A DNA stretch of 64,000 nt from Bradyrhizobium sp. NFR13 (GTDB lineage: Bacteria > Pseudomonadota > Alphaproteobacteria > Rhizobiales > Xanthobacteraceae): the NCBI RefSeq assembly GCF_900114605.1, contig NZ_FOTP01000004.1:372001-436000 (forward strand), in the 5' to 3' direction. The position numbers and the translations under genes are program-made. Numbering within the stretch: the stretch's first letter is position 1; each line of letters begins with the position of its first letter. The notes beneath the pieces were generated by a model. It had not been told where the DNA came from. It searched no databases and saw nothing but the letters and a program-made list of their open reading frames with translations. Shown in pieces: positions 894 to 56,618 of this stretch.

Positions 894-903
894 TTGGATC
901 CCG

Positions 904-1821
904 TCAGACTTTTTCGACTTCGGGACGGCCGAGCAGGCCGGTCGGCAGGAAGATCAGCACCACGATCAGAATCGAAAAGGCGGCGACGTCTTTGTATTCG
1001 GTGGAGAAGTAGGCGGCCCACAATGTCTCGATCAGGCCGATCAGCAAGCCGCCGAGCATGGCGCCAGGCAGCGAGCCGATGCCGCCGAGCACGGCGGCGG
1101 TGAAGGCCTTGATGCCGGCGACGAAGCCCATGAAGAAATCCACGAGGCCGTAATAGAGCAGGTACATCATCCCCGCGACGGCGGCGAGTGCCGCGCCGAT
1201 CACGAAGGTCATGGAGATGGTGCGATCGACGTCGACGCCGAGCAGTGACGCCATGGTCTGATCCTGCTCGCAGGCGCGCATGTCGCGGCCGAGGCGCGTG
1301 CGCGCCACCAGCCAGGTGAACAGCGCCAGCAGCACGATGGTGGTGATGACCACGATGATCTGGATGTTGGAGAGGCGCACCACAAAACCGTCGGCGCCTT
1401 CATGCAGCGTGTAGCCGCCGGTGATGATGGGCGGCACGGGTTTGACGCGGGCGCCCTGCGCGACCTGCGAGAAATTGGTCAGCACGAAGGACATGCCGAT
1501 CGCTGACAGCATCGGCGCGAGACGGAAGGAATGGCGCAAGGGACGATAGGCGATGCGCTCGATCGTCCAGCCATAGAGCGAGGTGATGGCCATCGAGACC
1601 AGAAGCACCAGCAGCAGGATCACCGGTACCGCGGTGAGGCCGATCGAGACGAGAATGAGAAAGGTGATCAGCGCGATGAAGCCGCCGATCATGAAGATGT
1701 CGCCATGGGCGAAATTGATCATGCCGACGATGCCGTAGACCATCGTATAGCCGATCGCGATCAGGCCATAGATGGAGCCGAGCACGAGTCCGTTGATCAG
1801 TTGCTGGGCGAAATAATCCAT
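904..1821 (-). CDS. livH: Branched-chain amino-acid ABC transporter permease LivH
   Basis: Second permease of the Liv/HAAT importer, 305 residues, the normal length. The N-terminal signature with NFAHGD at residues 36-41 is diagnostic for the LivH branch. About eight hydrophobic helices follow, and an EAA-like cytoplasmic loop (EQDQTMASLLGV) contacts the ATPases. It is first in the visible operon, followed by livM after 10 bases. The ATG at 1821 has only a weak purine-rich leader and no strong Shine-Dalgarno. A 21-base palindrome sits 30-50 bases upstream and may control it. No periplasmic binding-protein gene is visible here, so the ligand (Leu/Ile/Val, an amide or urea) cannot be deduced. 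Confidence 0.92.
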   Translation of the reverse strand: MDYFAQQLINGLVLGSIYGLIAIGYTMVYGIVGMINFAHGDIFMIGGFIALITFLILVSIGLTAVPVILLLVLLVSMAITSLYGWTIERIAYRPLRHSFRLAPMLSAIGMSFVLTNFSQVAQGARVKPVPPIITGGYTLHEGADGFVVRLSNIQIIVVITTIVLLALFTWLVARTRLGRDMRACEQDQTMASLLGVDVDRTISMTFVIGAALAAVAGMMYLLYYGLVDFFMGFVAGIKAFTAAVLGGIGSLPGAMLGGLLIGLIETLWAAYFSTEYKDVAAFSILIVVLIFLPTGLLGRPEVEKV

Positions 1822-2140
1822 GCGCTGCCGAATTCGAGTGAGGCGCCACCATGATCCGGCAGCCGGATCATTGCGTCGTTGTATCGTTTTCTAACAGCGG
1901 CCATTGGAGGCGGCAACAGGGGGCGGTGCGGCTAAAGTAGCCTGTACATGCTGTTTTTCGCGGCGATTTACATCCCTTCTATTGCGCCGCAGCGCACACA
2001 AGTCCGCACCTTATTTTGCGGCTGTTCCGGTGTCACAGTTGCGCCGTGCAACGGCCTTGCAATCATCACGCGGGAACCGAAACGAAGACCGGGGCTGCAC
2101 GTTGTCGGGCGTTGAATGGTTCAACAAAGGAGATTGAAGA
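1822..2140. other. Intergenic region between livH and the PGQQ peptide gene
   Basis: This 319-base gap holds the divergent upstream regions of livH (minus) and the small peptide gene (plus). Apart from the palindrome at 1851-1871 and the Shine-Dalgarno at 2126-2132, I see no conserved structure. An open frame at 1904-2137 has unconvincing composition and no ribosome-binding site, so I do not call it. Confidence 0.5.
1851..1871. promoter_or_regulatory. Perfect palindrome upstream of livH
   Basis: Arms ATGATCCGGC and GCCGGATCAT are perfect reverse complements separated by one A. The site lies 30-50 bases upstream of the livH start, where a repressor could occlude the promoter or leader. There is no T-run, so it does not look like an intrinsic terminator. 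The cognate regulator is unknown. Confidence 0.5.
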
Positions 2141-2296
2141 ATGTCCAATCAGAACCAGCAAAAGCCCGGTCAGCAGAAGCCGGGCCAGCAGAGCCAGAAC
2201 CCGGGGCAGCAGGGCCAGAAGCCCGGCCAGCAGCAGGGCGGTGGAATGAAACCCGGCCATGAGCAGGACCCGGACCACCGGCAGGGCCAGAGATAG
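2141..2296 (+). CDS. 51-residue Pro/Gly/Gln-rich low-complexity protein
   Basis: This tiny gene was found by eye. ATG 2141 is preceded by AAAGGAG at 2126-2132 (8-base spacing), and an intrinsic terminator begins about 50 bases after the stop, so it is a complete expression unit. The product is built from irregular copies of K-P-G-Q-Q, with a charged C-terminus (HEQDPDHRQGQR) and no hydrophobic core, signal peptide or Cys. It is probably intrinsically disordered and very hydrophilic, a composition seen in hydrophilin-like stress proteins. The function is unknown and that comparison is inference. The strong SD and terminator make it likely to be expressed. Confidence 0.75.
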   Translation: MSNQNQQKPGQQKPGQQSQNPGQQGQKPGQQQGGGMKPGHEQDPDHRQGQR

Positions 2297-2347
2297 GCCG
2301 TCAGACGGACGTCAATCGAGATTTGGGTCATTCAGCGACCCATATGG

Positions 2348-2374
2348 AAGGCCCCGTCGAAAGGCGGGGCTTTT
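2348..2374 (+). terminator. Rho-independent terminator after the PGQQ gene
   Basis: GCCCCG (2351-2356) pairs with CGGGGC (2365-2370) around an 8-base loop and is followed by TTTT. Flanking A/T bases extend the stem. It is correctly placed to end the transcript of the small peptide gene. Confidence 0.85.
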
Positions 2375-2532
2375 CGTTTGGCAAGTCCTGAGCGTATCTC
2401 GCCCGCCGTTATCCCGGCATTTCTCGAATTAAGGTTACCAATTGGTTTACGTTGTCCGTCTGATTGAACGGGCGTTACGTCGGCGCAGGCGTGCGACTCC
2501 TGCGAGTCGCCGGCGGAGCGGTGGACGACGTC

Positions 2533-3144
2533 ATGGATCAGAGCAGCGCAGACCAGACCGGAGCCCATCCGGTTGGAACTCTCCAGGCTGGCACGTTTCA
2601 GACTGGTACGTTTCAGACCTGGCGGATCAGCACGTTCACGGGCGCGCTGATCGCCTGCTATTTCATCCCGACCTGGACGATCTCTGCGTTCCGCATCATG
2701 GTCTCGCCGATCCAGGGCTTCTATGAGCGCCCCAATATTTCGCTGGCGCTGTTTCTCAGCGACTACATGCAATTTTCCAGCATGGGTACGGTGCGCTATG
2801 CGTGGCTGCTCGCCGTCGGCAAGCTGACGGTGGTCGCTTTCTTCACGGTATTCCTGGTGTTCATCACACGGCCGAAAATCCGCAAGACGGGCGGCTGCGA
2901 CGAAGCGTTGATGATGGCGCTTGGCATCGGCGGCGCAATCTCGTTCGCCAGCATGGTGATGGCATCGAAGGTCGGCGAGATCGCCGCGATGCGGTTGCAC
3001 ATCACCGAACTGCTGTTGATGCTCGGCGCTGCAGTGCTGCTGGCGATCGAGCCGCCACTACGCCGTGCGGCGGCGCATGAGCTGGACCCCGGGCAGCCGG
3101 GCAAGGCAGCCAACGACGCGCAACCTTTGCGAAAGGTCGCGTAA
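2533..3144 (+). CDS. Uncharacterised four-helix integral membrane protein
   Basis: I do not recognise this 203-residue protein. A polar N-terminus contains a short internal repeat (AGTFQTGTFQT). Four hydrophobic segments follow, at about residues 33-60, 90-115, 125-147 and 160-175, then a polar tail of about 30 residues. The pattern resembles small inner-membrane proteins of unknown function. ATG 2533 was chosen because the in-frame extension to 2464 is Arg-rich and has no ribosome-binding site; GTG 2521 is also possible. It converges with pcaC (13 bases between the two stops). No motif indicates a substrate or enzymatic role. Confidence 0.65.
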   Translation: MDQSSADQTGAHPVGTLQAGTFQTGTFQTWRISTFTGALIACYFIPTWTISAFRIMVSPIQGFYERPNISLALFLSDYMQFSSMGTVRYAWLLAVGKLTVVAFFTVFLVFITRPKIRKTGGCDEALMMALGIGGAISFASMVMASKVGEIAAMRLHITELLLMLGAAVLLAIEPPLRRAAAHELDPGQPGKAANDAQPLRKVA

Positions 3145-3157
3145 ACAGCGCGGCGGG

Positions 3158-3547
3158 CTAGATAGGGAGCCCGAGCTCCTTGATAATCGCGCCGGCTTCC
3201 CTGGTGGCGTGATTGGCTGCCGGCACGCCGCAATAGATTGCCTGCTGCAACAGGATTTCCTTGATGTCGTCCGGTGTGAAGCCGCCTTCGGTGAGGGCAG
3301 CACGCACATGCATGCGGAATTCGTCCCACTGGCCGAGCGCGAGCATCGTTCCGATCACCAGCACCCGTCGTGTGCGATCGTCGAAATGCGGCCGCGTCCA
3401 GATCTCTCCCCAGGCATAGCGGCTGATCAGATCCAGAAAATCGGCGTTAAATGAATTCTTGCCGGCGGCCGATTTGTCGACCCAGGCATTGCCGAGAACC
3501 TTGCGGCGTTTCGCGGTGCCTTTTTCGGCGCGCTGTTGCTCGTCCAT
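3158..3547 (-). CDS. pcaC: 4-carboxymuconolactone decarboxylase
   Basis: Converts 4-carboxymuconolactone to 3-oxoadipate enol-lactone in the protocatechuate branch of the beta-ketoadipate pathway; cytoplasmic. At 129 residues it has the standard PcaC length. The CMD core runs from about residue 35 to 120 and includes RPHFDDRTRRVLVIG and the helix around HVRAALTEGGFTPDDIKEIL, which are typical of PcaC rather than of AhpD, and the CxxC pair of AhpD is absent. It is last in pcaB-pcaD-pcaC, 13 bases after pcaD. The substrate is inferred from the operon and is well supported. Confidence 0.92.
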   Translation of the reverse strand: MDEQQRAEKGTAKRRKVLGNAWVDKSAAGKNSFNADFLDLISRYAWGEIWTRPHFDDRTRRVLVIGTMLALGQWDEFRMHVRAALTEGGFTPDDIKEILLQQAIYCGVPAANHATREAGAIIKELGLPI

Positions 3548-3560
3548 CTCAAGTCTCCCT

Positions 3561-4340
3561 TCAGCGCTGCGTCAGGAAGCCAACGAGGGCCTCGGTGAAG
3601 GCATGCGGCTGCTCGACATTGGAGATGTGGGCGGCATCCAGCAGCGTCATGCTGGCGCCGGGGATGCCGCTGCGGATGAGTTCGCCAGCGGAAACCGGTG
3701 TGGCGTTGTCCTGGCGGCCGGCGATCACCAGTACCGGGCTCTGGATCTTGGGCAGCAGGGCGCGCTGGTCGAGCGTGCTCAGCGCCTCGCAGGCGGCGAG
3801 ATAGCCCTCGACCGGGGACGCCAGCAGCATGGCCTTCATCTTCGCCGCGGTCTCGGGCTCGCGCTCGCGGAAGTCGGCGGTCAGCCAGCCACCGATGACG
3901 GCATCGGCGACAGCCCTGAGACCGCCTTCACGCACCGCCTTGATACGATTGTGCCAGTTGGTTGGGTCCGGATAATAGCAACTGGTATTAGCGAGAACGA
4001 TCTTGTTAAAACGCTCCGGCGCATTGGCGCCGAGCCACTGGCCGACCATGCCGCCCATCGACAGTCCGCACCAATGCACCTTGTCGATGTTGAGGTCGTC
4101 GAGGACCGCCAGCACGTCCTTGCCATAGCGCTCCATCGAGGTCGGGCCGTTCATGCCGGACTTGCCGTGGCCGCGGCGATCGTAGCGGATCACGCGAAAC
4201 AGCTTTGTCAGCGCCGGCATCTGCGGCTCCCACATCGCCATGGTGCAGCCAAGCGAATTCGACATCATCAGCGTCGGCCCGCTGTCGCGGCCCTCCACGG
4301 AGACATTCAGCAGGCAGCCGTCGGCGTCGATCATGGGCAT
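3561..4340 (-). CDS. pcaD: 3-oxoadipate enol-lactonase
   Basis: Alpha/beta hydrolase that opens 3-oxoadipate enol-lactone to 3-oxoadipate, the step after PcaC. The nucleophile is Ser94 in GLSMGG. The acid lies in the AGRQDNATPV segment, and His238 in DAAHISNV completes the triad. An RYDRRGHGKS stretch near residue 52 is also typical. At 259 residues it matches stand-alone PcaD rather than the PcaDC fusion. It sits between pcaB (22-base gap) and pcaC, so the three are one transcript. Confidence 0.93.
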   Translation of the reverse strand: MPMIDADGCLLNVSVEGRDSGPTLMMSNSLGCTMAMWEPQMPALTKLFRVIRYDRRGHGKSGMNGPTSMERYGKDVLAVLDDLNIDKVHWCGLSMGGMVGQWLGANAPERFNKIVLANTSCYYPDPTNWHNRIKAVREGGLRAVADAVIGGWLTADFREREPETAAKMKAMLLASPVEGYLAACEALSTLDQRALLPKIQSPVLVIAGRQDNATPVSAGELIRSGIPGASMTLLDAAHISNVEQPHAFTEALVGFLTQR

Positions 4341-4362
4341 GGTGTGTCTCCCGAGTTTCTTC

Positions 4363-5712
4363 TTAAGCGAGTGAGGCGAGCAGGCGGTCGATCAGGGTCT
4401 GCGAGACGCCCTGATAATCCATCGGTTCGAACAGTTTGGCGATGGCGTCAGCGCTCAGTTGCGTGCTGACCTTGGGATCGGCGGTGAGCACGCCGCGCAG
4501 ATGCTTCTTCTCGGCGACGGCGCGCTTGGTGGCGGCCTCGACCAGATGATGGGCGTCGCTCTTGCCGAGCTTTTCCGCCAGCGCAAAAGTCACGGCTTCC
4601 GCCATGATGAGGCCGTGCGTGGTGTCGAGATTGGCGCGCATCCTGACGGCATCGACCTCGAGCCCTTCGGCAATATCGACGATTGCGGCCAGCGCGCCCG
4701 ATGTCACCAGCAGCAGCATCGGCAGGGTCGGCCATTCCGCGTGCCATGGACCGGCGCTCCGTTCGTGATCCTGGATCTGCGCGGCAAAGATGGTGGCGGC
4801 GAGATTGGGGGCCATGGTTGCGGCGCCAAGCGCCGAGGCCGATGCCACGGGGTTGCGCTTGTGCGGCATGGTGGACGAACCGCCGCGGCCTTCACCGGAT
4901 GGTTCGAACGCTTCGCCGACATCGGTCTGCATCATCAGCGAGACATCGCGGGCGATCTTGCCGCAACTACCGGACAGGATCGCCAGCACTGAGGCCACTT
5001 CGGCGATACGATCGCGATGGGTATGCCATGGCGCATCGGGCAGCGGCAGCTGCAATTCCTTGGCGAGTTGCTCGGCAACCACGAGCCCCTTGTCACCGAG
5101 CGCAGCCAGCGTGCCGGCGGCGCCTCCGAATTGCAGTGCAAGGCCTTCGGCGCGCAATCGTTTCAGCCGCAAACGCGAACGGTGCAGCGCCGACGCATAT
5201 TCGGCGAGCTTCAGCCCAAATGGCATTGGCAGCGCATGCTGCAGCCATGTGCGGGCGACCACGGCGGTGTTGCGGTGCTTGACCGCAAGGGCTGCGAAGC
5301 CGGCGACGGCGCGATCGAGATCTGCAAGCAGGGCGTCGATGGCGGCGCGCAGGCCGAGCATCGTCGCGCTATCGATGACATCCTGGCTGGTGGCGCCCCA
5401 ATGCACGTAGCGCGCGGCCTCGGCATCGGCCTTCGCCACTTTGGCAGTGAGCGCCCTGACCAGCGGGATGGCGAGGTTGCCGGAACGCGTGGCGGCATCG
5501 GCCAGGGCGGCCATATCGAACTGATCGGCTTTACAGGCGGCCTCGATGGCCGCCACTGCGCTGGCAGGAATCACCCCGGCTGACGCCTCGGCGCGCGCCA
5601 GTGCGGCTTCGAAGTCCAGCATATGCTGCAAATGGGCGGTATCATCGCAGACCGCGCGCATCGCGGGGCTCGACAGCAGGGGCGCCAGCAGAGGGGATAG
5701 GGATGTGCTCAT
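4363..5712 (-). CDS. pcaB: 3-carboxy-cis,cis-muconate cycloisomerase
   Basis: Member of the fumarase/aspartase superfamily that cyclises beta-carboxymuconate, the product of protocatechuate 3,4-dioxygenase, to 4-carboxymuconolactone. At 449 residues it has the usual PcaB length. The superfamily signature GSSTMPHKRNP lies around residues 280-290 and carries the catalytic loop Ser. WGATSQDVIDSA, near residue 104, is the conserved substrate-binding stretch. First gene of the pcaBDC operon. The dioxygenase genes pcaHG and a pcaQ regulator are not in the window and must be elsewhere. Confidence 0.94.
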   Translation of the reverse strand: MSTSLSPLLAPLLSSPAMRAVCDDTAHLQHMLDFEAALARAEASAGVIPASAVAAIEAACKADQFDMAALADAATRSGNLAIPLVRALTAKVAKADAEAARYVHWGATSQDVIDSATMLGLRAAIDALLADLDRAVAGFAALAVKHRNTAVVARTWLQHALPMPFGLKLAEYASALHRSRLRLKRLRAEGLALQFGGAAGTLAALGDKGLVVAEQLAKELQLPLPDAPWHTHRDRIAEVASVLAILSGSCGKIARDVSLMMQTDVGEAFEPSGEGRGGSSTMPHKRNPVASASALGAATMAPNLAATIFAAQIQDHERSAGPWHAEWPTLPMLLLVTSGALAAIVDIAEGLEVDAVRMRANLDTTHGLIMAEAVTFALAEKLGKSDAHHLVEAATKRAVAEKKHLRGVLTADPKVSTQLSADAIAKLFEPMDYQGVSQTLIDRLLASLA

Positions 5713-5925
5713 TTGTGCGGGACCCTAACCATTCCGTGCAGAGTCTGCCAATCCCCTGCAAACAGCCTACCGCTATCGCTTGTTGCATTGCGAATAGGCA
5801 GTGCATCCATTCCGCTGGCCGGTCTTTCCTTTGTGCCGTCTGTGCATTACTTGGGATCGACGGTCTATTCCCCTCGGGGATCACAGCCTTAATTTCGGAC
5901 GGCGACAAATTCAGGAGACAGACCC

Positions 5926-6372
5926 ATGGCCATGACGATGAGCGGTGAAGTCCAGCTTGCCGCGCCCCGCGAAGTGGTGTGGGGAAAGCTCAACGACCCC
6001 GCAGTGCTGAAGGCCTGCATCCCGGGTTGCGAAGAGCTCGAGACCACGGAGGAAGGCGGCTTTCGTGCCACCGCCAAGATCAAGGTCGGCCCGGTTTCCG
6101 CCCGCTTCAAGGGTAAGGTCACGCTGAGCGATCTCGATCCGCCGAACGGCTACAAGATCACTGGTGAAGGCGAGGGCGGCGTGGCCGGCTTTGCCAAGGG
6201 CGGCGCCGTCGTCGGCCTGACCGACAAGGATGGTGGCACGCTCCTGACCTACAATGTGGAAGCCCAGATCGGCGGCAAGCTGGCCCAGCTCGGTCAGCGC
6301 CTCATCAACGGTTCGGCCAAGAAGATCGCCGACGAGTTCTTCGCGAACTTCGCCAAGGCCGTTCAGGGTTAA
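5926..6372 (+). CDS. coxG: CoxG-like SRPBCC protein of the CO-dehydrogenase family
   Basis: START/Bet v1-like carbon-monoxide dehydrogenase subunit G family protein, 148 residues. CoxG-type proteins help recruit or assemble the molybdenum hydroxylase at the membrane. The domain fills the whole protein, from AAPREVVWGKLNDP near residue 11 to the C-terminal helix. The longer C-terminal linker and membrane anchor found in some CoxG proteins are missing. It precedes coxS by 171 bases and is first in a co-directional run to coxE and beyond. ATG 5926 has an AGGAGACAGACCC leader (spacing within normal range). The family is clear; the exact role is inferred. Confidence 0.85.
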   Translation: MAMTMSGEVQLAAPREVVWGKLNDPAVLKACIPGCEELETTEEGGFRATAKIKVGPVSARFKGKVTLSDLDPPNGYKITGEGEGGVAGFAKGGAVVGLTDKDGGTLLTYNVEAQIGGKLAQLGQRLINGSAKKIADEFFANFAKAVQG

Positions 6373-6543
6373 GGCCCGCAGCGTCTGATAGCGGCGATCA
6401 AGTATGTTTGATACCGCAGAAAAACACACAAGAGACCGTCCCGACTTGAGGTTGCTCATTGCCGGGATGGGCCATATTATGCATTTGGAATGATTTTAAT
6501 GACCGTGTTGCCACGCAATGGGGCGCGGACCAAGAGAGTGCAT

Positions 6544-7029
6544 ATGGCCAAAATCTCGATGATCGTGAACGGCAATCCCGTCACCGGCAATATCGATCCG
6601 CGCACATTGCTGGTGCAGTTTCTGCGTGAGAATCTGCGGCTCACCGGCACCCATGTGGGTTGCGACACGTCGCAATGCGGCGCCTGTGTTGTGCATCTCG
6701 ACGGCAAGGCCGTGAAGTCCTGCACCACGCTCGCCGTGATGGCTGATGGCCACGAGGTGAAGACCATTGAAGGTCTTGCAGCCGATGGCGCGCCGCTGCA
6801 TCCCATGCAGGAAGCGTTTCGCGAGCATCACGGCCTGCAGTGCGGCTTTTGCACCCCGGGCATGATCATGACCGCGGTCGACCTCGTGCATCGCAAGGGG
6901 CATGATCTCAGCGATCACCTGATCCGCGAAGAACTCGAAGGCAATCTCTGTCGCTGCACCGGTTATCAGAACATCGTGGCGTCGATCGCAGCCGGCGCCA
7001 AAGCGATGGCGAAGTCCGATCTCGCATAA
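6544..7029 (+). CDS. coxS: Molybdenum hydroxylase iron-sulfur subunit (CoxS type)
   Basis: Carries the two [2Fe-2S] clusters that shuttle electrons between the molybdenum centre and FAD. From ATG 6544 it is 161 residues. Cys40, 45, 48 and 60 form the plant-ferredoxin cluster. Cys100, 103, 136 and 138 form the helical second cluster (CGFC and CRC motifs), so both are intact. ATG 6544 was chosen because [12 protein letters not shown] is the standard family N-terminus, whereas an earlier in-frame ATG at 6490 adds 18 atypical residues. coxM follows after 46 bases. A large subunit normally encoded next to it is missing here. Confidence 0.92.
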
Positions 7030-7075
7030 CGACGCACAACGATAATCGCGCACCGCGAATCAGGGATCCCCACCC

Positions 7076-7882
7076 ATGTACGAATTCAAATATCATCGTC
7101 CGTCGACCGTGCGGCAGGCCGCCAATCTCCTCATCAAGAACGAAGACGCCAAGCTGATCGCCGGCGGTCACACGCTGGTGCCGGTCATGAAGCAGCGTCT
7201 GGCGGCACCACCGCATATCATCGATCTCTCGCATATCGAGGGCGTCGACGGCATCGAGATGAAGGGCCGCTCCCTGGTGATCGGCGCGCTGGCCAAGCAT
7301 GCCAATGTCGCGGCGTCGCCGATCGTCGGCGAAGCGATCCCCGCGCTGGCCGAACTCGCCGGCCTGATCGGCGATCCCGCCGTGCGCCACAAGGGCACCA
7401 TCGGCGGTTCGCTCGCCAATAACGATCCGACCGCGGACTATCCCGCAGCCGTGATGGCGCTCGGCGCCACCATCGTTACCAACAAGCGCAAGCTGAAGCC
7501 GGAAGAATTCTTCCAGGGTCTGTTCACGACCGCGCTGGAGAGCGACGAGATCATCACCAAGGTCTCGTTCCCGGTGCCGAAGAAGGCAGCCTATATCAAG
7601 TTCCGCAACCAGGCCTCGCGCTATGCGCTGGTCGGTGTGTTCGTGGCGCGGCTGCCGTCAGGCGTGCGCGTTACCGTCACGGGCGCGGGCTCGGATGGCG
7701 TGTTCCGCGTCGAGGCGTTCGAGGCCGCCCTGCAGAAGCGGTTCTCGCCAAAGGCGCTGGACGGGCTTACGGTGCCGGCCGAAGGCCTCAACAGCGATCT
7801 CCATGGCAGCGCCGAATATCGCGCGCATCTGATCGGCGTGCTGGCCAAGCGTGCGGTCGAAGCCGCTAACAACCGGGCCTGA
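7076..7882 (+). CDS. coxM: Molybdenum hydroxylase FAD-binding subunit (CoxM type)
   Basis: Medium subunit binding FAD and passing electrons to the respiratory quinone pool, 268 residues, close to the usual 270-290. FAD-binding motifs are visible: AGGHTLVPVMKQRL near residue 30 and the TIGGSLANNDPTADYPA loop near residue 107. The C-terminal CO-dehydrogenase flavoprotein domain spans about residues 170-265. It starts 46 bases after coxS with nothing between them, so the S-L-M order of form II clusters is broken by absence of L. The neighbouring coxD/coxE maturation genes favour the CODH family over xanthine or nicotinate oxidoreductases, but the substrate is not proven. Confidence 0.9.
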   Translation: MYEFKYHRPSTVRQAANLLIKNEDAKLIAGGHTLVPVMKQRLAAPPHIIDLSHIEGVDGIEMKGRSLVIGALAKHANVAASPIVGEAIPALAELAGLIGDPAVRHKGTIGGSLANNDPTADYPAAVMALGATIVTNKRKLKPEEFFQGLFTTALESDEIITKVSFPVPKKAAYIKFRNQASRYALVGVFVARLPSGVRVTVTGAGSDGVFRVEAFEAALQKRFSPKALDGLTVPAEGLNSDLHGSAEYRAHLIGVLAKRAVEAANNRA

Positions 7883-7920
7883 TATTTGTCAGGCTCGCAG
7901 TTCCTCGGATCGGTTCTCTC

Positions 7921-8829
7921 ATGACCAAGCCATCGGCGCTCCCCACTTCCGTCGATGGCATGCTGGAATTGCTGACATCGCGCGGCTATCTCGCCGAGCG
8001 GTCTTTGGCGACGGTGGCTTACCTGTCGCTGAAAATGGGGCGACCGCTGTTTCTCGAAGGCGAGGCTGGCGTCGGCAAGACCGAGATCGCGAAGGTGTTA
8101 TCAGCAGCGCTCGGCCGCAAGCTGATCCGGCTGCAATGCTATGAAGGCCTCGACGTTTCTTCTGCAGTCTATGAGTGGAACAGCGCCTCGCAGATGATCG
8201 CGATCCGGTTGGCGGAAGCCGCCGGCGATACCGACCGCGATCAGCTCTCCAGCGACATCTTCGCCGAGCGTTACCTGATCAAGCGTCCGCTGCTGCAGGC
8301 GCTGGAGCCGGACGTGAATGGCGCGCCGGTCTTGTTGATCGACGAACTTGACCGCGCAGATGAGGCGTTCGAGGCGTATCTCCTCGAAATTCTCAGCGAC
8401 TTTCAGGTGACCATTCCCGAACTCGGCACGGTGAAGGCGCCATCGCCGCCGATTGTCATCGTCACGTCGAACCGCACCCGCGAAATCCACGACGCGTTGA
8501 AGCGGCGCTGTCTGTATCACTGGGTCGACTATCCCGCCGCCGAGCGCGAACTCGCCATCGTCAAGTCGCGCGTGCCGGGCATCTCCGCAAAGCTCTCGCA
8601 GCAGGTGGTGAAGTTCGTGCAGGCGCTGCGCGACCAGGATTTCTACAAGTCGCCGGGCGTCGCCGAAACACTGGACTGGGCGACCGCGCTGACCGAACTC
8701 GACGCCCGCTCGCTGACGCCGCAGGTGGTGGGCGATACGCTGGGCGCACTGTTGAAGTATCAGGACGACATCCAGCGCATGCAGGGCGATGCGCTGGCGA
8801 AGGTGATTAAGGAAGCGACGAGCGATTAG
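7921..8829 (+). CDS. coxD: MoxR-family AAA+ ATPase (CoxD type)
   Basis: AAA+ chaperone of the MoxR family. CoxD is needed for the Cu-S-Mo active site of CO dehydrogenase in Afipia carboxidovorans. At 302 residues it has Walker A GEAGVGKT at 47-54, Walker B LLIDELDRAD around 139-148, and an arginine-finger region VIVTSNRTREIHDALKRRC. ATG 7921 lies 39 bases after coxM. The partner VWA protein CoxE is encoded next, matching the known CoxD-CoxE ATPase/VWA pairing. Confidence in the family is high; the client enzyme is inferred from context. Confidence 0.9.
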   Translation: MTKPSALPTSVDGMLELLTSRGYLAERSLATVAYLSLKMGRPLFLEGEAGVGKTEIAKVLSAALGRKLIRLQCYEGLDVSSAVYEWNSASQMIAIRLAEAAGDTDRDQLSSDIFAERYLIKRPLLQALEPDVNGAPVLLIDELDRADEAFEAYLLEILSDFQVTIPELGTVKAPSPPIVIVTSNRTREIHDALKRRCLYHWVDYPAAERELAIVKSRVPGISAKLSQQVVKFVQALRDQDFYKSPGVAETLDWATALTELDARSLTPQVVGDTLGALLKYQDDIQRMQGDALAKVIKEATSD

Positions 8830-8851
8830 CTGAAGCGCGGGGCCACAAACT

Positions 8852-9010
8852 CGTCGTTCCGGGGCGCCGCACTTGCGTCGAACCCGGAACCTCGATGTGT
8901 TGATCGCGCCAAACACGGCGGGATTCCGGGGTCGAACGCGAAGACGCGCTCGCCCCGGAATGACAGTGGCAGTTCGGTCGCGCAAATGGCGCGCCCGCCC
9001 CGGAACGACG
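8852..9010. repeat. REP-like palindromic element with 15-base perfect terminal inverted repeat
   Basis: The ends, 8852-8866 and 8996-9010, are perfect 15-base reverse complements (CGTCGTTCCGGGGCG and CGCCCCGGAACGACG). Inside, further TTCCGGGG / CCCCGGAA pairs near 8932-8963 allow a second hairpin, so the 159 bases can fold into a branched structure. The same TTCCGGG core recurs at 56464-56596. This matches a family of extragenic palindromes that I know from Bradyrhizobium and Rhodopseudomonas. It separates coxD from coxE and ends at the coxE ribosome-binding site. Confidence 0.85.
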
Positions 9011-9019
9011 GAGTTAGGT

Positions 9020-10222
9020 TTGCCCATCGACCATCTCAACCCACCGACCGGCCAGATGGCAGACAATGTCATCGGCTTTGCGCGTGCGCTCCGCGCCGCC
9101 GGCCTGCCGGTTGGGCCGGGTGCGGTGATCGATGCGCTGAATGCCTTGCAGATGATCGAGATCGGCAAGCGCGCCGACGTATTCACGACGTTGGAAGCAA
9201 TCTTCGTCAAACGCCACGAGCACGCGTTGGTGTTTGCCCAGGCCTTTGATCTGTTCTTCCGTGCGGCCGACGAATGGAAGCAGATGCTGGATTCGGTGCC
9301 GCTGCCCGACGATGCCAAGCGCAAGCCGCCGCCGGCCTCGCGCCGCGTGCAGGAGGCGATGGCGCAACCGGCACAGGGCGCAGAACGCGAGGCACCGCAG
9401 GAGCAGGAGATCAGGCTGTCGGTCTCCGACCGTGAGGTTTTGCAGAAGAAAGATTTTGCGCAGATGAGCGCAGCGGAGATCGCCGAGGTCACGCGCGCCA
9501 TCGCCAATATGCGGCTGCCGCAAGCTGAACTGCGCACGCGCCGCACCCAGCCGGACAAGCACGGCGCGCGGCTCGATCTGCGGCGCACGCTGCGCGGCAG
9601 CCTGCGCACGGGCGGCGACATCATCGACATCCGCAGGCTAGGCCTGATCGATAAGCCGGCGCCGATTGTCGCGCTGCTCGATATCTCCGGCTCGATGAGT
9701 GAATATACTCGACTGTTTCTGCACTTCCTTCATGCGATTACGGACGCCCGCAAGCGCGTCTCGGTCTTCCTGTTCGGCACAAGGCTGACCAATGTGACGC
9801 GGGCGCTGCGCTCGCGCGATCCCGACGAGGCGCTGGCCTCGTGCTCGGCCTCGGTGGAAGACTGGGCCGGCGGTACGCGCATTTCCGCGTCGCTGCACAA
9901 CTTCAACAAGCTCTGGGGACGCCGCGTGCTCGGCCAAGGGGCGATCGTGCTGCTGATCTCGGACGGGCTGGAGCGCGAAGCGGATTCCCAACTGGCCTTC
10001 GAGATGGACCGGTTGCATCGCTCCTGCCGGCGGCTGATCTGGCTCAACCCGCTATTGCGCTTCGACGGCTTCGAGCCGAAAGCGCAGGGCATCAAAATGA
10101 TGCTCCCGCACGTTGACGAATTCCGCCCGGTGCATAATTTGAGTTCGATCGACGGACTGATCAAGGCGCTGTCATCGGCGCCTCCGGTCCATCACCGCAG
10201 CCTGATCCGGCCCGCAGCTTAA
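9020..10222 (+). CDS. coxE: VWA-domain protein of the CoxE family
   Basis: CoxE proteins carry a von Willebrand A domain and work with the CoxD ATPase in maturing the molybdenum-copper site. The C-terminal half holds an intact MIDAS motif, LLDISGSMSEY (DxSxS), at about residue 218. The N-terminal part is the CoxE-specific helical region starting NVIGFARALRAAGLPVGPG. TTG 9020 was chosen because a GGAG lies 6 bases upstream. The in-frame extension to 8873 translates the palindromic repeat and is Arg-rich nonsense. ATG 9056 is an alternative. About 400 residues, a normal length. Confidence 0.85.
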   Translation: MPIDHLNPPTGQMADNVIGFARALRAAGLPVGPGAVIDALNALQMIEIGKRADVFTTLEAIFVKRHEHALVFAQAFDLFFRAADEWKQMLDSVPLPDDAKRKPPPASRRVQEAMAQPAQGAEREAPQEQEIRLSVSDREVLQKKDFAQMSAAEIAEVTRAIANMRLPQAELRTRRTQPDKHGARLDLRRTLRGSLRTGGDIIDIRRLGLIDKPAPIVALLDISGSMSEYTRLFLHFLHAITDARKRVSVFLFGTRLTNVTRALRSRDPDEALASCSASVEDWAGGTRISASLHNFNKLWGRRVLGQGAIVLLISDGLEREADSQLAFEMDRLHRSCRRLIWLNPLLRFDGFEPKAQGIKMMLPHVDEFRPVHNLSSIDGLIKALSSAPPVHHRSLIRPAA

Positions 10223-10233
10223 GAGAGGCTTCC

Positions 10234-10563
10234 ATGCTCAATCGCGATGAAGACATCCTGCAGGCCGCGGAAGCGTGGCAGAAGGCCGGACACGGCGTGG
10301 CGCTGGCCACCGTGGTTGAGACCTGGGGTTCGGCGCCGCGTCCCGCAGGCTCGAATCTCGTCATCAATGACGACGGCACCTTCTTGGGCTCGGTCTCCGG
10401 CGGTTGCGTCGAAGGCGCCGTGGTCACCGAGGCGCTCGATGTGATTGCGAGTGGCGAGCCCAAATTGCTCGAATTCGGCGTGGCTGACGAGACCGCGTGG
10501 AATGTCGGCCTGTCCTGCGGCGGCACCATCCGCGTGTTCGTCGAGAAGGTGGGCCAGTCGTGA
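10234..10563 (+). CDS. XdhC/CoxI N-terminal domain protein
   Basis: A 109-residue protein consisting only of the XdhC_CoxI domain, which in XdhC binds molybdenum cofactor and delivers the sulfurated form to the apo-hydroxylase. Conserved motifs TWGSAPRPAGSNL (about residues 30-42) and SVSGGCVEGAV (53-63) are present. A Cys in LSCGGTIRVF near the end is the conserved second Cys. The start ATG 10234 follows a GAGAGG leader. Its stop overlaps the GTG of the next gene by 4 bases, so the two halves of what is one XdhC chain elsewhere are translationally coupled. Confidence 0.88.
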   Translation: MLNRDEDILQAAEAWQKAGHGVALATVVETWGSAPRPAGSNLVINDDGTFLGSVSGGCVEGAVVTEALDVIASGEPKLLEFGVADETAWNVGLSCGGTIRVFVEKVGQS

Positions 10564-11261
10564 AAGCCGAGACACTTGCCACTCTGAACGCCGAGCGCGC
10601 CGCCCGGCGTCCTGTCATTTTGATCACCGATATATCCGATGGAACACAACGCCTGGTGAAGGCCGCCGATTTCGGCGCCGATCCGCTGCATGCCGAGCTC
10701 GAGAAGCAGCTCCGCATGGGCAAGAGCGCGATGGTCGAGGCGGACGGCAAGAAGCTGTTTCTCAACGTCTACGCGCCGACCGCGCGGCTAGTGATCATCG
10801 GTGCCGTCCATATCAGCCAGGCGCTAGCGCCGCTGGCGCGGTCGCTGGATTACGATGTGACGGTGGTCGATCCGCGCACAGCTTTTGCCAGTCCCGAGCG
10901 TTTCCCGGACGTGAAACTGATCGCCGAATGGCCGGAAGAGGCGTTGCCGGGCCTCGACATCGATCACTACACGGCCTTCGTCGCCGTGACCCACGATCCG
11001 AAGATCGACGATCCCGCGCTGCTACATGCCTTCGAGAAGAATTGCTTCTATATCGGTGCGCTAGGCTCGCGAAAGACCCACGCCAAGCGCGGCGACCGGC
11101 TGAAGGCGCAGGGCGTCAGCGAGGCTGATTTCGCGCGGATCAAGGCGCCGATCGGCTTGAATATTGGTGCCGTGTCGCCGTCGGAAATTGCTGTGTCGAT
11201 CATGGCGGAGATTACGGCCGAGCTGCGTATGCCCAGGGATGCGAAGGCGGCTGGGGCATGA
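10560..11261 (+). CDS. XdhC Rossmann (C-terminal) domain protein
   Basis: The second half of XdhC as a separate 233-residue protein. An N-terminal region of about 75 residues precedes the Rossmann-like XdhC_C domain, with VIIGAVHISQALAPLA near residue 79 and the conserved GALGSRKTHAKRGDRL near 165. It acts with the preceding XdhC_CoxI protein in sulfurated Moco delivery. GTG 10560 overlaps the upstream stop as GTGA, so I prefer it over an in-frame start at 10497 that would lie inside the previous gene. The next gene starts at 11258, again a 4-base overlap. Confidence 0.88.
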   Translation: MKAETLATLNAERAARRPVILITDISDGTQRLVKAADFGADPLHAELEKQLRMGKSAMVEADGKKLFLNVYAPTARLVIIGAVHISQALAPLARSLDYDVTVVDPRTAFASPERFPDVKLIAEWPEEALPGLDIDHYTAFVAVTHDPKIDDPALLHAFEKNCFYIGALGSRKTHAKRGDRLKAQGVSEADFARIKAPIGLNIGAVSPSEIAVSIMAEITAELRMPRDAKAAGA

Positions 11262-12862
11262 AGTTCGGTCCCGCCAGTCCGGCGGATGCACTCGGCGGCG
11301 TGACCGTCCATACGCTGCGTCAGGGTTCGCTCGTTCTCAAGAAAGGCACCACCATCGGTCCCGATGAAGTCGCAGCGCTGACGAGCGCCGGCGTCAAGGA
11401 CGTCGTTGTCGTGCGCCTCGAAGACGGTGACGTCTCTGAGGACGTCGCAGCTGCGAGTATCGCGCAGGCCGTGGCGGGCGAGGGCGTCAATGTTGAGCGC
11501 GCCTTCACGGGCCGCGCCAATCTATTTGCGGGGACGCCGGGCGTGCTGGTCGTCGATCGCGCCATCGTCGATCGCATCAATGCCGTCGACGAAGCGATCA
11601 CCTTTGCAACGCTGGCGGCCTACAAGCCGGTGGTCGAAGGTGAGATGATCGCGACCGTCAAGCTGATCCCGTTCGGCGTCGCCGGCACGCTGCGCGACGC
11701 GGCCGTCCAGGCTGCCTCGGGCGGCGCAATGCGGATCGCGCCTTACACGGTCAGGAAAGTCGGCATCGTCTCGACACTGTTGCCGGGGCTGTCGCCGAAG
11801 GTGATCGACAAGACGCTGCGTGTGACCGAAGAGCGCCTCGCGCCTGCCGGTGCGAAGATCATCGCCGAGCGCCGCGTGCCGCATGACGAGAAAGTGCTGG
11901 CAAAGACAATCAAGGAACTGCTCGGGCTCGGCGCCGAGCTGGTGATCGTGTTCGGAGCCTCGGCCATTGCCGACCGCCGTGACGTGATTCCGTCGGCCAT
12001 CGAACACATCGGCGGCGCCATTGAACATTTCGGCATGCCGGTCGATCCCGGCAATCTGCTTCTGATCGGCCGGGCCGGCGACGTGCCGGTGCTCGGCGCG
12101 CCCGGCTGCGCGCGTTCGCCGGTGGAAAACGGTTTCGACTGGGTGTTGATGCGGCTGCTGGCTGGCCTCAAGGTGACCCGCGCCGATCTCACCGGCATGG
12201 GTGTCGGCGGTTTGCTGATGGAAATCGTGACCCGGCCGCAACCACGCGTGCCCGTCGGCAGCGATAGCAACAGCAATGTCGCCGCCGTTATTCTGGCCGC
12301 CGGCCGTTCGACCCGGATGGGCGGGCCGAACAAGCTGCTCGCCGAACTCAACGGCAAGGCATTGGTCCGGATCGTCGCCGAACAAGCGATCGCATCGAAA
12401 GCGTCGAGCGTAACGGTGGTGACAGGTCATCAGGCGCCGGAGGTCGAGAAGGCGCTGGCCGGACTCAAAGTCACCTTTGTCTACAACCCTGATTTTGCCG
12501 ATGGCCTTGCCAGTTCGGTGAAAGCCGGCATCGCGGCAGTCCCGGCGGATGCCAATGGAGCCGTGGTCTGTCTCGGCGACATGCCGCTGATCGATGCCCA
12601 GTTGATAGATCATCTGATAGAGACCTTCGCGCCGGATCGCGGCAACCTCATCGTCGTCCCTGTGAGTGAGGGCCGTCGCGGTAATCCCGTGTTGTGGTCT
12701 CGGCGCTTCTTCAATGAGTTGATGACGCTGGACGGCGATATCGGCGCCCGGCACCTGATCATGAAGCACGCCGAAGCCGTTGCCGATGTGGCGGTGGAAG
12801 GCCACGGCGCCTTCCTCGATATCGATACGCCGCAGGCGCTGGAAGACGCGCGGAGCGGGTGA
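11258..12862 (+). CDS. Molybdopterin-binding domain / MobA-like nucleotidyltransferase fusion
   Basis: A 534-residue fusion. Residues 1 to about 335 are a MoeA/CinA-type molybdopterin-binding region (HTLRQGSLVLKKGTTI near 20, GASAIADRRDVIP near 233). Residues about 345-534 are an NTP-transferase of the MobA/MocA type with the nucleotide loop ILAAGRSTRMGGPNK and a CLGDMPLID metal-site motif. It most likely makes the cytosine- or guanine-dinucleotide form of Moco needed by the hydroxylase; CODH uses MCD, so a MocA role is the better guess. It is overlapped by the upstream XdhC gene and ends the cox/Moco operon. Confidence 0.87.
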   Translation: MKFGPASPADALGGVTVHTLRQGSLVLKKGTTIGPDEVAALTSAGVKDVVVVRLEDGDVSEDVAAASIAQAVAGEGVNVERAFTGRANLFAGTPGVLVVDRAIVDRINAVDEAITFATLAAYKPVVEGEMIATVKLIPFGVAGTLRDAAVQAASGGAMRIAPYTVRKVGIVSTLLPGLSPKVIDKTLRVTEERLAPAGAKIIAERRVPHDEKVLAKTIKELLGLGAELVIVFGASAIADRRDVIPSAIEHIGGAIEHFGMPVDPGNLLLIGRAGDVPVLGAPGCARSPVENGFDWVLMRLLAGLKVTRADLTGMGVGGLLMEIVTRPQPRVPVGSDSNSNVAAVILAAGRSTRMGGPNKLLAELNGKALVRIVAEQAIASKASSVTVVTGHQAPEVEKALAGLKVTFVYNPDFADGLASSVKAGIAAVPADANGAVVCLGDMPLIDAQLIDHLIETFAPDRGNLIVVPVSEGRRGNPVLWSRRFFNELMTLDGDIGARHLIMKHAEAVADVAVEGHGAFLDIDTPQALEDARSG

Positions 12863-12963
12863 GCATCCCGGATGCGGCGGGCCGTCGCATTTCACTTTCG
12901 TTCACCAAGTTGAAACGCCCTTCCCTGTAGCGTCTGCCTCGATCGGCCTCGGGGGAGGGGAAA

Positions 12964-13344
12964 TTGTCGCTGTTTGTTGCCGCGCGTCGTCGCGCGATTC
13001 TCGCCGTTGCCTTGTTGATGAGCTTGGGCGCCATGGATGTGGCCTCAGCCGCTGGTGCCCTCGCCGTAGGCAAGTGTGGTGCCTATGGCCAGGCATTCGA
13101 CTATTCGGCGCAGGCGGCGGCGGTGGCGGCCGCTAAAAAGCAGTGCAAGGGCGAGTGCACGACGGTAACGATGAAGCGCGCCTGCGCCGCCTTCGCCGTG
13201 GATATGAAGAATCCCTGCGGCGCGCATGGCTATGCGGTGGCGCCGCGCATTTCCAGCTCGCTGAATCAGGCGACCAAGAAATGCTATGACTACGGCGGTA
13301 AGGAATGCGTCATCCGCGCCTGGGCCTGCGACGCCAAGGGCTAG
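12964..13344 (+). CDS. Secreted DUF4189-type small protein
   Basis: A 126-residue exported protein: a signal peptide (about residues 8-30, cleavage near ASA-AG) then a Cys-rich DUF4189 domain of about 90 residues with repeated AAA/KKQC and Cys pairs that probably form disulfides in the periplasm. The role of DUF4189 is not known to me. TTG 12964 was chosen because GGGGAGGGG lies just upstream and it gives a complete signal peptide. The first in-frame ATG (13018) would remove most of it. It is followed by the cyclase gene after 53 bases. Confidence 0.78.
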   Translation: MSLFVAARRRAILAVALLMSLGAMDVASAAGALAVGKCGAYGQAFDYSAQAAAVAAAKKQCKGECTTVTMKRACAAFAVDMKNPCGAHGYAVAPRISSSLNQATKKCYDYGGKECVIRAWACDAKG

Positions 13345-13397
13345 AGCTCCCCGACAAATATCTCGTTCAACGCGCCTGCGGCGGCTAGACTGCTGCA

Positions 13398-14720
13398 ATG
13401 ATTCAATTTTTCCGGACACTTTTGAAGCCCGCCGCCGACGCCGATCCGTCCGTTCGGGAGTTTCGGAAGGCGCTGAGCCGCGAGATGCTGTTGACCGAGC
13501 GGTTGCGGGTCAAGACGGTGATCGGCACCGTGGTGATCGTGACGCTGTCACTGTCCATCAGCTATTTGCTGGCGCCGTCGAGTTTCGCGCGCATATCCAA
13601 TGGCAAGTTCGATCTCGCATCGTCTTTTATGATCACGGGCCCGCTGCTGCTGTTCGAGTTCTTCGTTCTTTACAAAGTCAATCAGCGCATCGCTGCAGGG
13701 CAAGATATTGCGCATGGGCGGCGCTATCTGAGTGCGCTCATCGAGACCAGCATTCCGACGGCCGCACTGCATCTCCATATGGGCTGGATGGGGCCGGCGG
13801 GGGCGTTGGCATTTGCGGCACCGTTGTCCTATTTCATCTTCATCATTCTATCCACGCTTCGGCTCGATTTCTGGCTGTCGACGTTTACCGGTTTTGTCGC
13901 GGCTGCCCAGATGCTCGCGATGGCCATGCTGTATCATCCGGCGCAATTCGCTTCGGAACCCGCACCGGATTTTGCGTTTCAGCTTATCCGTAGCGCCATG
14001 GTCCTGCTCTGCGGTATTCTCGCAGGCGCGGTCGGTTTGCAACTTCGTCGCCAGTTCGAGGCGAGCATCGCGGCAACTTCGGCGCGCGATCGTGTCACCA
14101 ATCTGTTCGGTCAGCATGTCTCGCCGCAGGTGGTGGAACAGTTGCTGGCGTCGGGAACGAGCTCCACGACCGAAATACGTCAGGTCGCGGTGATGTTCGT
14201 CGATATCCGTAACTTTACCGCGGCAACCCGTGTGCATTCGCCGCGCGAGGTGGTGGAGCGGCTCGACGAGACGTTTGCATTGCTGGTCGATGTGCTGGAT
14301 CGACATTCCGGGATCGTGAACAAATTTCTCGGTGACGGCTTTCTCGCGCTGTTCGGAGCGCCCATTGAGGACCCGAATGCGGCGCATTGCGCCGTGCAGG
14401 CAGCACGCGAGATGCTCATAGCTGTCGAGAAAAGCAATCAGGACAGTGAATGGCCCCTGCGCATTGGCATCGGGCTTCATATCGGGACCGTGATTGCCGG
14501 CAATGTTGGCTCCCCGCGCCGCAAGGAGTATACGGTCATCGGCGATACCGTGAATTTCGCAGCCCGGCTTGAGGCGCTCAACAAACAGTTCGACTCGCAA
14601 TTGCTGATCTCCGCCTCCATACGCGATGCCTTGGGCGACACCTGCAGCGATGCGGAGTTGCTCGGCGATGTGCCGATCCGCGGCTATGATCTGCCGCAGG
14701 CGATCTGGCGGCTCGGCTGA
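13398..14720 (+). CDS. Membrane-bound class III adenylate/guanylate cyclase
   Basis: A 440-residue cyclase producing a cyclic nucleotide from ATP (or GTP). An N-terminal membrane domain of about six helices (residues 40-225) is followed by the class III catalytic domain (about 250-440). Metal-binding Asp residues are in VMFVDIRNFT and KFLGDGFLALFG. The substrate-specifying Lys/Asp pair appears in KEYTVIGDTVNFAARL, and GLHIGTVIAGNVG is the dimer-arm region. All catalytic residues look intact. The Lys-Asp combination favours adenylate cyclase. Alphaproteobacteria of this group carry many such genes, so the signal sensed is unknown. Confidence 0.9.
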   Translation: MIQFFRTLLKPAADADPSVREFRKALSREMLLTERLRVKTVIGTVVIVTLSLSISYLLAPSSFARISNGKFDLASSFMITGPLLLFEFFVLYKVNQRIAAGQDIAHGRRYLSALIETSIPTAALHLHMGWMGPAGALAFAAPLSYFIFIILSTLRLDFWLSTFTGFVAAAQMLAMAMLYHPAQFASEPAPDFAFQLIRSAMVLLCGILAGAVGLQLRRQFEASIAATSARDRVTNLFGQHVSPQVVEQLLASGTSSTTEIRQVAVMFVDIRNFTAATRVHSPREVVERLDETFALLVDVLDRHSGIVNKFLGDGFLALFGAPIEDPNAAHCAVQAAREMLIAVEKSNQDSEWPLRIGIGLHIGTVIAGNVGSPRRKEYTVIGDTVNFAARLEALNKQFDSQLLISASIRDALGDTCSDAELLGDVPIRGYDLPQAIWRLG

Positions 14721-14802
14721 GCAGATTCCCGATCAGTTTTCATGTCCGGCACGCTCATGTAGCCACCAAGTGTGCGGTTGCTGAAATCGTTCGAAAGGCC
14801 TT

Positions 14803-14830
14803 GAATATGACTGACTGGTCAGTCATATTC
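14803..14830. promoter_or_regulatory. Probable TetR operator (13-base inverted repeat)
   Basis: GAATATGACTGAC (14803-14815) and GTCAGTCATATTC (14818-14830) are perfect reverse complements around TG. The core TGACTGAC-TG-GTCAGTCA has the usual TetR/AcrR operator form. It ends 5 bases before the GTG start of the TetR gene that heads the export operon, so autorepression of the whole operon is the natural reading. Confidence 0.85.
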
Positions 14831-14835
14831 AGCCC

Positions 14836-15570
14836 GTGAGCGCATCCGAAGCGAAATCGAAGGCGGTGCGATTAGCCCGTGCGGCCACTGGTCGAGGCGG
14901 TGCGAAGAAGGCTGTCGCCAAGCCTGCCAGAACGGCAATACCGAAACTTGCCACGTCGAAGCCGCCATCGAAACGCGAAGCCAAAGCCGAGGAGCGGCGG
15001 GCGGCGATTATCGCTGCCGGGCTCGACGAATTCGTTGCCCGTGGCTTTGCCGGTACCCGGCTCGACGACGTGGCGAAACGCGCCGGCGTCGCCAAGGGCA
15101 CGATCTATCTCTACTTCACCGACAAGGAGGCGCTGTTCCAGGAACTGGTGCGTAGCGCGCTCGGCCCGCTGATCAGCCGGATGAGCGAGCCGCCGGTCGC
15201 GGGTGGCTCGGCCCGCGCCATGATGGAAGGCTTCGCCGAAAGCTTTGTGCGCGACGTCGTGCAAACCCGGCGCGGCGACATTTTGCGCCTGATCATAGCG
15301 GAGGGCGCGCGCTTCCCATCATTGTCGGAATTCTACTACCGCGAAGTGGTGGAACGGGGGATGGCTGGCATGCGGCAAATGATCGAATACGGCATCGCAC
15401 GCGGCGAGATTCGCAATCCCGCGCTGCTAAAGTTCCCGCAGCTTCTCGTGGCTCCGGCCATGGTCGCGGTGATCTGGCAAGGGTTGTTTGCCCGGCTGGC
15501 GCCGCTCGACGCCATGGCGATGTTGCAGGCTCATATCGACCTGATCTTTGGCGAGCGGAGAACGGTATGA
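14836..15570 (+). CDS. TetR/AcrR-family regulator of the export operon
   Basis: A 244-residue repressor. The N-terminal HTH (about residues 52-98) includes FAGTRLDDVAKRAGVAKGTIYLYFTDKEALF, split across helices 2-4 as in TetR. The C-terminal ligand domain ends in a CecR/YbiH-like WQGLFARLAPLDAM region. The first 50 residues are an unusual Lys/Ala-rich extension. GTG 14836 lies only 5 bases after the operator, leaving no room for a ribosome-binding site. Either the transcript is leaderless or the real start is further in. It overlaps the HlyD gene (ATGA at 15567), placing regulator and pump in one operon. Confidence 0.88.
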   Translation: MSASEAKSKAVRLARAATGRGGAKKAVAKPARTAIPKLATSKPPSKREAKAEERRAAIIAAGLDEFVARGFAGTRLDDVAKRAGVAKGTIYLYFTDKEALFQELVRSALGPLISRMSEPPVAGGSARAMMEGFAESFVRDVVQTRRGDILRLIIAEGARFPSLSEFYYREVVERGMAGMRQMIEYGIARGEIRNPALLKFPQLLVAPAMVAVIWQGLFARLAPLDAMAMLQAHIDLIFGERRTV

Positions 15571-18453: not shown

Positions 18454-18505
18454 ACGGTTAAGATAAAATGTAGGAGATTCGATATCCTGGGTGATTCAGT
18501 CGATA

Positions 18506-19348: not shown

Positions 19349-19479
19349 CGAGCCCCCACCCAACGCAACAGAAACACAATCGTAAAATACAACTTAAGGT
19401 AGATTATTCTGTGGATAGGCTGATGTCCAGTGTGGATAACCCGGTGAGGGAGAAATTTTGCTGATGAGCCGCCGCGGCT

Positions 19480-19944: not shown

Positions 19945-20080
19945 GTGAGCATCCAGGTGATCGGCAAATGATTGGCACAATGTCGCGGGCAGCCGCGAGA
20001 CGTTGCTCCGATCTGCAACATGACACATAGTCAACTCAACAAACTCTGCCAGTTCAATGGCTGATATCACCGGGGGAACA

Positions 20081-56463: not shown

Positions 56464-56596
56464 CGTCATTCCGGGATGCACGTAAGTCGGCATAGCCGAC
56501 TGGAGTGCAGGCCCGGAATCCTGAGATGTTCAGCGCCTAACCGCACGGGATTCCGGGTTCGCGTGCAGCTGGCGCTGCCCGCGCCCCGGAATGACG
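56464..56596. repeat. REP-like palindromic element with 12-base terminal inverted repeat
   Basis: CGTCATTCCGGG (56464-56475) and CCCGGAATGACG (56585-56596) are perfect reverse complements. Inside are the AGTCGGC/GCCGACT hairpin (56485-56501) and further TTCCGGG/CCCGGAA pairs, giving two tandem hairpins. Same core as the element at 8852-9010. It lies between convergent genes. Confidence 0.85.
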
Positions 56597-56618
56597 GCTG
56601 AGGCACTAAGCGTACGTC

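Follow-up and report, generated by a model that had tools for sequence, protein, structure and literature searches.

In molybdenum hydroxylases of the xanthine oxidase family, the large subunit (L) carries the molybdenum cofactor (Moco), the small subunit (S) two [2Fe-2S] clusters and the medium subunit (M) flavin adenine dinucleotide (FAD), and to our knowledge each L has its own dedicated S and M. Here we analyse a cox-type operon without a gene for L, which begins at position 5926 of a 64,000-nucleotide stretch of the Bradyrhizobium sp. NFR13 genome (contig NZ_FOTP01000004.1, positions 372,001 to 436,000; this whole stretch is called the window). We consider it probable that the operon provides one electron-transfer and maturation module for several catalytic L subunits, each encoded alone elsewhere in the genome.

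The closest described systems are CO dehydrogenases (CODH); statements on cited papers refer, here and below, to those parts of their text that were available. The roles of M, S and L have been described (PMC11771112), and CoxD, CoxE and CoxG of Oligotropha/Afipia carboxidovorans are factors for maturation and membrane recruitment whose roles in maturation and growth were tested (PMC4240915). CoxG has also been described as passing electrons to quinone (PMC13240472). Homologues of CoxD, CoxE and CoxG are common to this form I system (coxMSL plus coxDEFG) and the window operon, and the nearest solved structures for the M subunit of the window are CODH chains (1ffv/1ffu/1n5w). The gene order differs, being M-S-L in form I and S-M without L in the window operon, and the form I motif AYXCSFR with its Cu-binding cysteine occurs in none of the 16 L proteins of the genome. 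With form II coxSLM operons, whose L carries AYRGAGR, the window operon shares the types of S and M, the order S-(L)-M and the accessory genes, and the L-bearing operon of sister genera is such an operon. The adjacency of S, L and M, however, is not found in the window operon; L is missing there, and the likely clients are solitary and located elsewhere.

Among NCBIfam models, S and M of the window score best against those of the archaeal glyceraldehyde dehydrogenase type (NF041020 and NF041019), and S finds its best solved match in chain C of PDB 4zoh. Both NCBIfam scores fall short of the curated cut-offs (212.5 of 290 and 206.7 of 350) and thus do not establish membership of that family. 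Mo-CODH-like clusters of Nitrobacter hamburgensis and B. japonicum USDA110 may have the same arrangement as the window operon, but the available text of that work (PMC3091675) does not propose that subunits are shared.

Results

The S gene of the window is located at 6544..7029 (+ strand, 161 amino acids (aa), PF01799 and PF00111) and the M gene at 7076..7882 (+ strand, 268 aa, PF00941 with 169.5 bits). For S the ATG at 6544 was taken as the start; a further in-frame ATG is present at 6490. By Pfam and alignment, S has eight cysteines predicted to hold two [2Fe-2S] clusters and M an FAD domain, which places both in the xanthine oxidase family. Only 46 nucleotides (nt; 7030..7075) separate the two genes, at the site that coxL occupies in other genera. 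A tblastn search of window positions 1-20000 with the 16 L proteins of the genome gave a single strong match, in which coxS was hit by the S domain of a protein with S and L fused, and a hidden remnant of L in this region was thus rejected. The Pfam gene order, this search and the coordinates agree with the preliminary description, which had reported a cox-type cluster without coxL and 46 bases between coxS and coxM.

Searches with the M protein of the window gave 535 confirmed matches in public genomes, and gene content was counted for the best 80 of these. The 80 loci come from Tardiphaga, Bradyrhizobium, Rhodopseudomonas, Afipia and metagenome-assembled genomes; they include flanks of up to 10 kb and are 4.5-20.8 kb long, some being cut by contig ends. 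L was found in none of the 80 homologous loci, while S, M and D were present in all of them, E in 78, G in 77, both XdhC halves in 73, the transferase in 71 and pcaB in 64. The gap between S and M in these L-less loci is 9-85 nt. The same arrangement was seen in the single-contig relatives G003, G005, G006, G008, G011 and G032. Because none of these 80 loci holds L, its absence is not a local assembly fault; it is real and old. The ratio of nonsynonymous to synonymous substitution rates (dN/dS), calculated from ten comparisons per gene using 10 of the 80 loci, was 0.027-0.085 for S, 0.058-0.199 for M and 0.016-0.136 for D, showing purifying selection. In each of the 59 S proteins aligned, all eight cysteines are retained.

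The whole genome (6.2 Mb, 17 contigs) holds 16 L genes (from 21 PF20256 matches), 13 S genes and 9 M genes. S of the window is the only S without an adjoining L, and the window S-M is the sole S-M pair lacking L. Three L genes have neither S nor M nearby. One (C7:900825-903197) lies between genes that we named by eye as presumably ppx-like and hppA-like. Another (C11:20966-23293) adjoins genes for an M20 amidohydrolase, a DHDPS-family protein, a deaminase and an alcohol dehydrogenase; this neighbourhood (L028, C11:12000-31900) suggests a purine/pyrimidine or hydantoin-like substrate. The third (C13:188297-190594) follows a gene that we take, again by eye, to be murJ-like and precedes genes for a cytochrome c' and a c-type cytochrome. 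Within the genome AYRGAGR is restricted to these three solitary L and to the L of a complete S-L-M set on C6 (C6:992922-995276). The form I motif AY.CSFR occurred in none of the long open reading frames (ORFs) searched and 'CSF' in none of the 16 L proteins; a form I CODH was consequently rejected for this genome. This was the outcome of the genome-wide motif search proposed in the preliminary description.

Identity among the AYRGAGR proteins is 41-44%, and it does not exceed 35% between them and the remaining L. Window S and M show 62% and 60% identity to S and M of the C6 set, the next best values being 50% and 35%. All three solitary L contain GxGExG with the catalytic Glu, and the C13 protein aligns to the solved CoxL 8uem over residues 12-757 of 765. 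No homologues of D, XdhC or the transferase were detected in the 14-20 kb surrounding each of the other L genes of the genome. A genome-wide search with PF05762 (CoxE) gave the window gene, C17:94256 and a weak match at C9:120813, the latter two being away from other L genes. Two further arrangements were observed. At C10:156915-162920 (L029) an operon M-L-S-L combines two different L with one S and one M, possibly a second case of sharing, here in cis. At C11:6609-9215 (L036) L is fused to its own S domain in one ORF of 868 aa, with a separate M adjoining.

Homologous operons with L between S and M were found at L282, L271, L288, L312, L195, L318, L233, L230, L246 and L326. The order pcaB-G-S-L-M-D-E-XdhC-XdhC-transferase is present in L282 (G019) and L318 (G047), and the order G-S-L-M-D-E-XdhC in L271, L312, L195 and L246. 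For one of the S-M trees 44 of 66 pairs were used; near-identical rows of the same genus, L238 and rows with S shorter than 100 aa were left out. The window pair is nested among pairs that retain L, and the C6 set forms a separate clade (13 rows, 95/93). Likewise, in the L tree the C6-type L is a clade of its own (0.999), apart from the syntenic L. This synteny together with the S-M trees places the window operon as a descendant of a form II operon whose own L was lost. Loss rather than relocation is indicated because L sits between S and M in other genera and because the C6 set belongs to another clade in both trees, so that a move of the lost L into the C6 set was rejected. The comparison with syntenic strains, suggested in the preliminary description for telling loss from relocation, hence speaks for loss. 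On the tree the L-less S-M pairs require four changes, at least two of which are forced by well-supported branches.

To survey solitary L among relatives, a DNA pattern for YRGAGRxE was used, which gave 174 matches in 61 relatives, compared with 5 for a reversed control pattern. The neighbourhoods of all 174 matches were examined, mostly over +/-6 kb, some being stopped by contig ends. Four matches (G006:3782, G011:4442, G012:C113 and G015:C1c) lay in no L gene and were dropped. Of the 170 L genes classed, 121 had no S or M in the stretch, 46 had both (four of these, L216, L238, L303 and L311, being other motif types or adjoining S/M of another type) and 3 had S only. GxGExG is present in 115 of the 121 solitary L; four are too short and two are without it. 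In all 12 genomes of the same genus, including the one studied here, the L-less S-M is accompanied by a C6-type set and by the same three solitary L. An L-less form II S-M occurs in 23 genomes, each of which has at least one solitary L. In five genomes (G017, G020, G023, G026 and G028) a solitary L and an L-less S-M were found together and no complete AYRGAGR S-L-M set was detected. The whole genome of G028 has two L and two S; one set is complete and the other consists of a solitary L (C77) and an L-less S-M (C45), which is the only plausible partner for that L.

Solitary L and form II M, the latter called at E <= 1e-80, occur together. Among the 61 genomes, 45 have both and 14 neither, one has only M (G018) and one only solitary L (G014, which also carries an M-S-L-D set of another type). 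When 24 genomes of the order were taken, one per family, 11 had both, 13 neither and none one alone (Fisher p 4e-7, kinship within the order not being modelled). In a sample of 160 genomes from the phylum, for which motif and M matches were only counted, the L motif accompanies form II M in all 29 genomes that have the latter, and it also occurs in 4 of the 131 genomes lacking form II M (G176, G195, G120 and G159); the matches in G195, G120 and G159 are probably due to chance. Matches to the L motif outnumber M matches in 21 of the 29 genomes and equal them in 8.

All genes of the window operon are tightly packed on the + strand, and their Pfam order is CoxG, [2Fe-2S] S, FAD-binding M, AAA ATPase, VWA_CoxE, XdhC_CoxI, XdhC_C and MobA/MocA-like transferase. 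The coxG-like gene (5926..6372, 148 aa) matches PF06240 with 126 bits; by analogy with studied CoxG proteins, its product is likely to recruit the enzyme to the membrane or to hand electrons over to quinone (PMC4240915, PMC13240472, PMC11962113). Downstream of M, a coxD-like AAA ATPase gene predicted to act in maturation (7921..8829, 302 aa, PF07728) scores 266 bits against the MadB-type model NF047784, under the cut-off of 475. It is followed by the gene for a coxE-like VWA protein, likewise a putative maturation factor (9020..10222, 400 aa, PF05762 with 268 bits). Translation of coxE probably starts at TTG 9020 and not at 8873, since repeats occupy 8852-9010. This repeat element in the coxD-coxE interval consists of 15-nt inverted arms and a 20-nt direct repeat, and a related copy of its core is found at window positions 56583-56597.

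Further downstream lie the N-terminal half of XdhC (XdhC_CoxI, 10234..10563, 109 aa, PF02625 with 97 bits), its C-terminal half with a Rossmann domain (10560..11261, 233 aa from GTG 10560, PF13478 with 152.5 bits) and a Moco nucleotidyltransferase of the MobA/MocA type (11258..12862, 534 aa, PF12804 with 142 bits). The N-terminal part of the transferase resembles MoCF_biosynth/MoeA weakly (PF00994, 24.5 bits, under its cut-off), and the whole scores 162.7 bits against TIGR03310, below the cut-off of 186.45. The preliminary description had the genes in the right order, but what it took for two XdhC genes are the two halves of one XdhC, and the cluster reaches past 10222 to 12862.

Upstream, pcaB for 3-carboxy-cis,cis-muconate cycloisomerase (4363..5712, - strand, NF006554 with 672 bits, cut-off 595) is a conserved divergent neighbour outside the module. 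Together with a carboxymuconolactone decarboxylase-family gene and a presumed alpha/beta hydrolase gene, named by eye, it forms a divergent protocatechuate-type set (3158-5712), which most of the 80 loci retain next to the operon. To judge from these neighbours, the lost L may possibly have acted on aromatic substrates.

Discussion

The arrangement described here is probably best explained by a form II operon coxG-S-L-M-D-E-xdhC-moc that lost its own L and became a hub. S and M of the window would then form the electron-transferring part of several Mo hydroxylases that have their L encoded alone, the candidate clients being the solitary L on C7, C11 and C13. Each of these would bind the common S-M pair, and electrons would flow from Mo through the two [2Fe-2S] clusters of S to the FAD of M and on to the quinone pool, helped by CoxG. 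Insertion and sulfuration of the cofactor of the solitary L would be carried out in trans by D, E, the two parts of XdhC and the Moco transferase; the same proteins would probably also serve the C6 S-L-M set, which has none of the D, XdhC or transferase homologues nearby. The substrate would depend on the L in use, and aldehydes or N-heterocycles are more probable than CO. Electron transfer flavoprotein (ETF), which is the one electron outlet for many acyl-CoA dehydrogenases, offers an analogy in working only, because its proteins differ from the window S-M. The preliminary description had offered a choice between a large subunit encoded elsewhere and service to another Mo hydroxylase. Both fit, but the choice is not a simple one, as the operon's own L was lost and three solitary L are the likely clients.

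Since L carries Moco, the clusters and FAD sit in S and M, and the solitary L keep GxGExG, it is most likely that these proteins depend on an S-M pair, for which the window S-M is, by elimination, the best candidate. Alternatively, the solitary L could work without S-M or with other acceptors, such as the cytochromes encoded next to the C13 L, and the operon could be kept for its maturation genes with S and M as passengers. The location of these maturation genes in the same operon, and the lack of D, XdhC and transferase homologues in the stretches around the other L genes, would fit such a situation. We regard it as unlikely, however, because the cofactor cysteines of S are all kept and the dN/dS values of S and M (0.027-0.199) are not those expected of passengers. 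Furthermore, the ORF list shows no cytochrome gene adjoining the C7 or C11 L, and we know of no redox centre other than Moco in L of the xanthine oxidase family.

Distinctly less probable is that the solitary L use S and M of the complete C6 set, the window S-M being a decaying or differently used leftover. The C6 L is indeed the nearest paralogue of the solitary group in the genome. Against this stand the five genomes with solitary L and L-less S-M in which no complete AYRGAGR set was found, the purifying selection on window-type S and M, and the retention of both in all 80 loci. An assembly or annotation artefact hiding an adjacent coxL, the finding named in the preliminary description as a refutation, has nothing in its favour and is practically excluded by the 80 L-less loci and the single-contig relatives.

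Several points weigh against a shared module. Many 'solitary' calls depend on stretches of +/-6 kb or on shortened contigs. The S-M tree and the L tree disagree over the placement of G039 and G053, and in the approximately unbiased (AU) test a single clade of L-less S-M was not quite rejected (p 0.0504), so that the number of L losses is uncertain. G014 (loci L211-L213, L253) has three solitary L and no form II M, at a contamination of 6%; G018 has S-L-M and yet no solitary L; and G176 has a plausible L motif match and no M match. Co-occurrence could also reflect shared maturation genes instead of S-M pairing. In genomes with a second complete S-L-M, such as the present one, a given L might pair with either S-M, and the cytochrome c' and c-type cytochrome genes beside the C13 L could provide another electron acceptor.

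The name CO dehydrogenase, used for the cluster in the preliminary description, suits it poorly, as no L of the genome is of form I and the candidate L have AYRGAGR. B. japonicum has been reported to oxidize CO (PMC3091675), and the available texts leave the role of AYRGAGR or form II proteins in CO oxidation unresolved (PMC13240472, PMC13203968, PMC4053681). CO is an unlikely substrate of AYRGAGR L, since glycine replaces the Cu-binding cysteine and strains having only form II were inactive (PMC4053681).

Our literature search, in which most subscription papers were beyond reach, found no paper proposing one S-M pair for several L. We favour, though with less confidence than for the shared module in this genome, a broader generalization, in which one S-M pair and the maturation genes beside it may serve a whole radiation of interchangeable solitary L in many Hyphomicrobiales families. 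These L, of which up to seven or eight occur per genome, would differ in substrate; the operon would have become a dedicated hub through losing its own L repeatedly, and 'form II CO dehydrogenase' may consist mostly of such satellites. If so, the number of 'form II coxL' genes would be no measure of CO oxidation, and the role of form II could be addressed by deleting one coxSM locus. Genomes of the G028 type, in which a single solitary L stands against a single L-less S-M, represent a clean two-locus case. New substrates would then be within reach by evolution of L alone.

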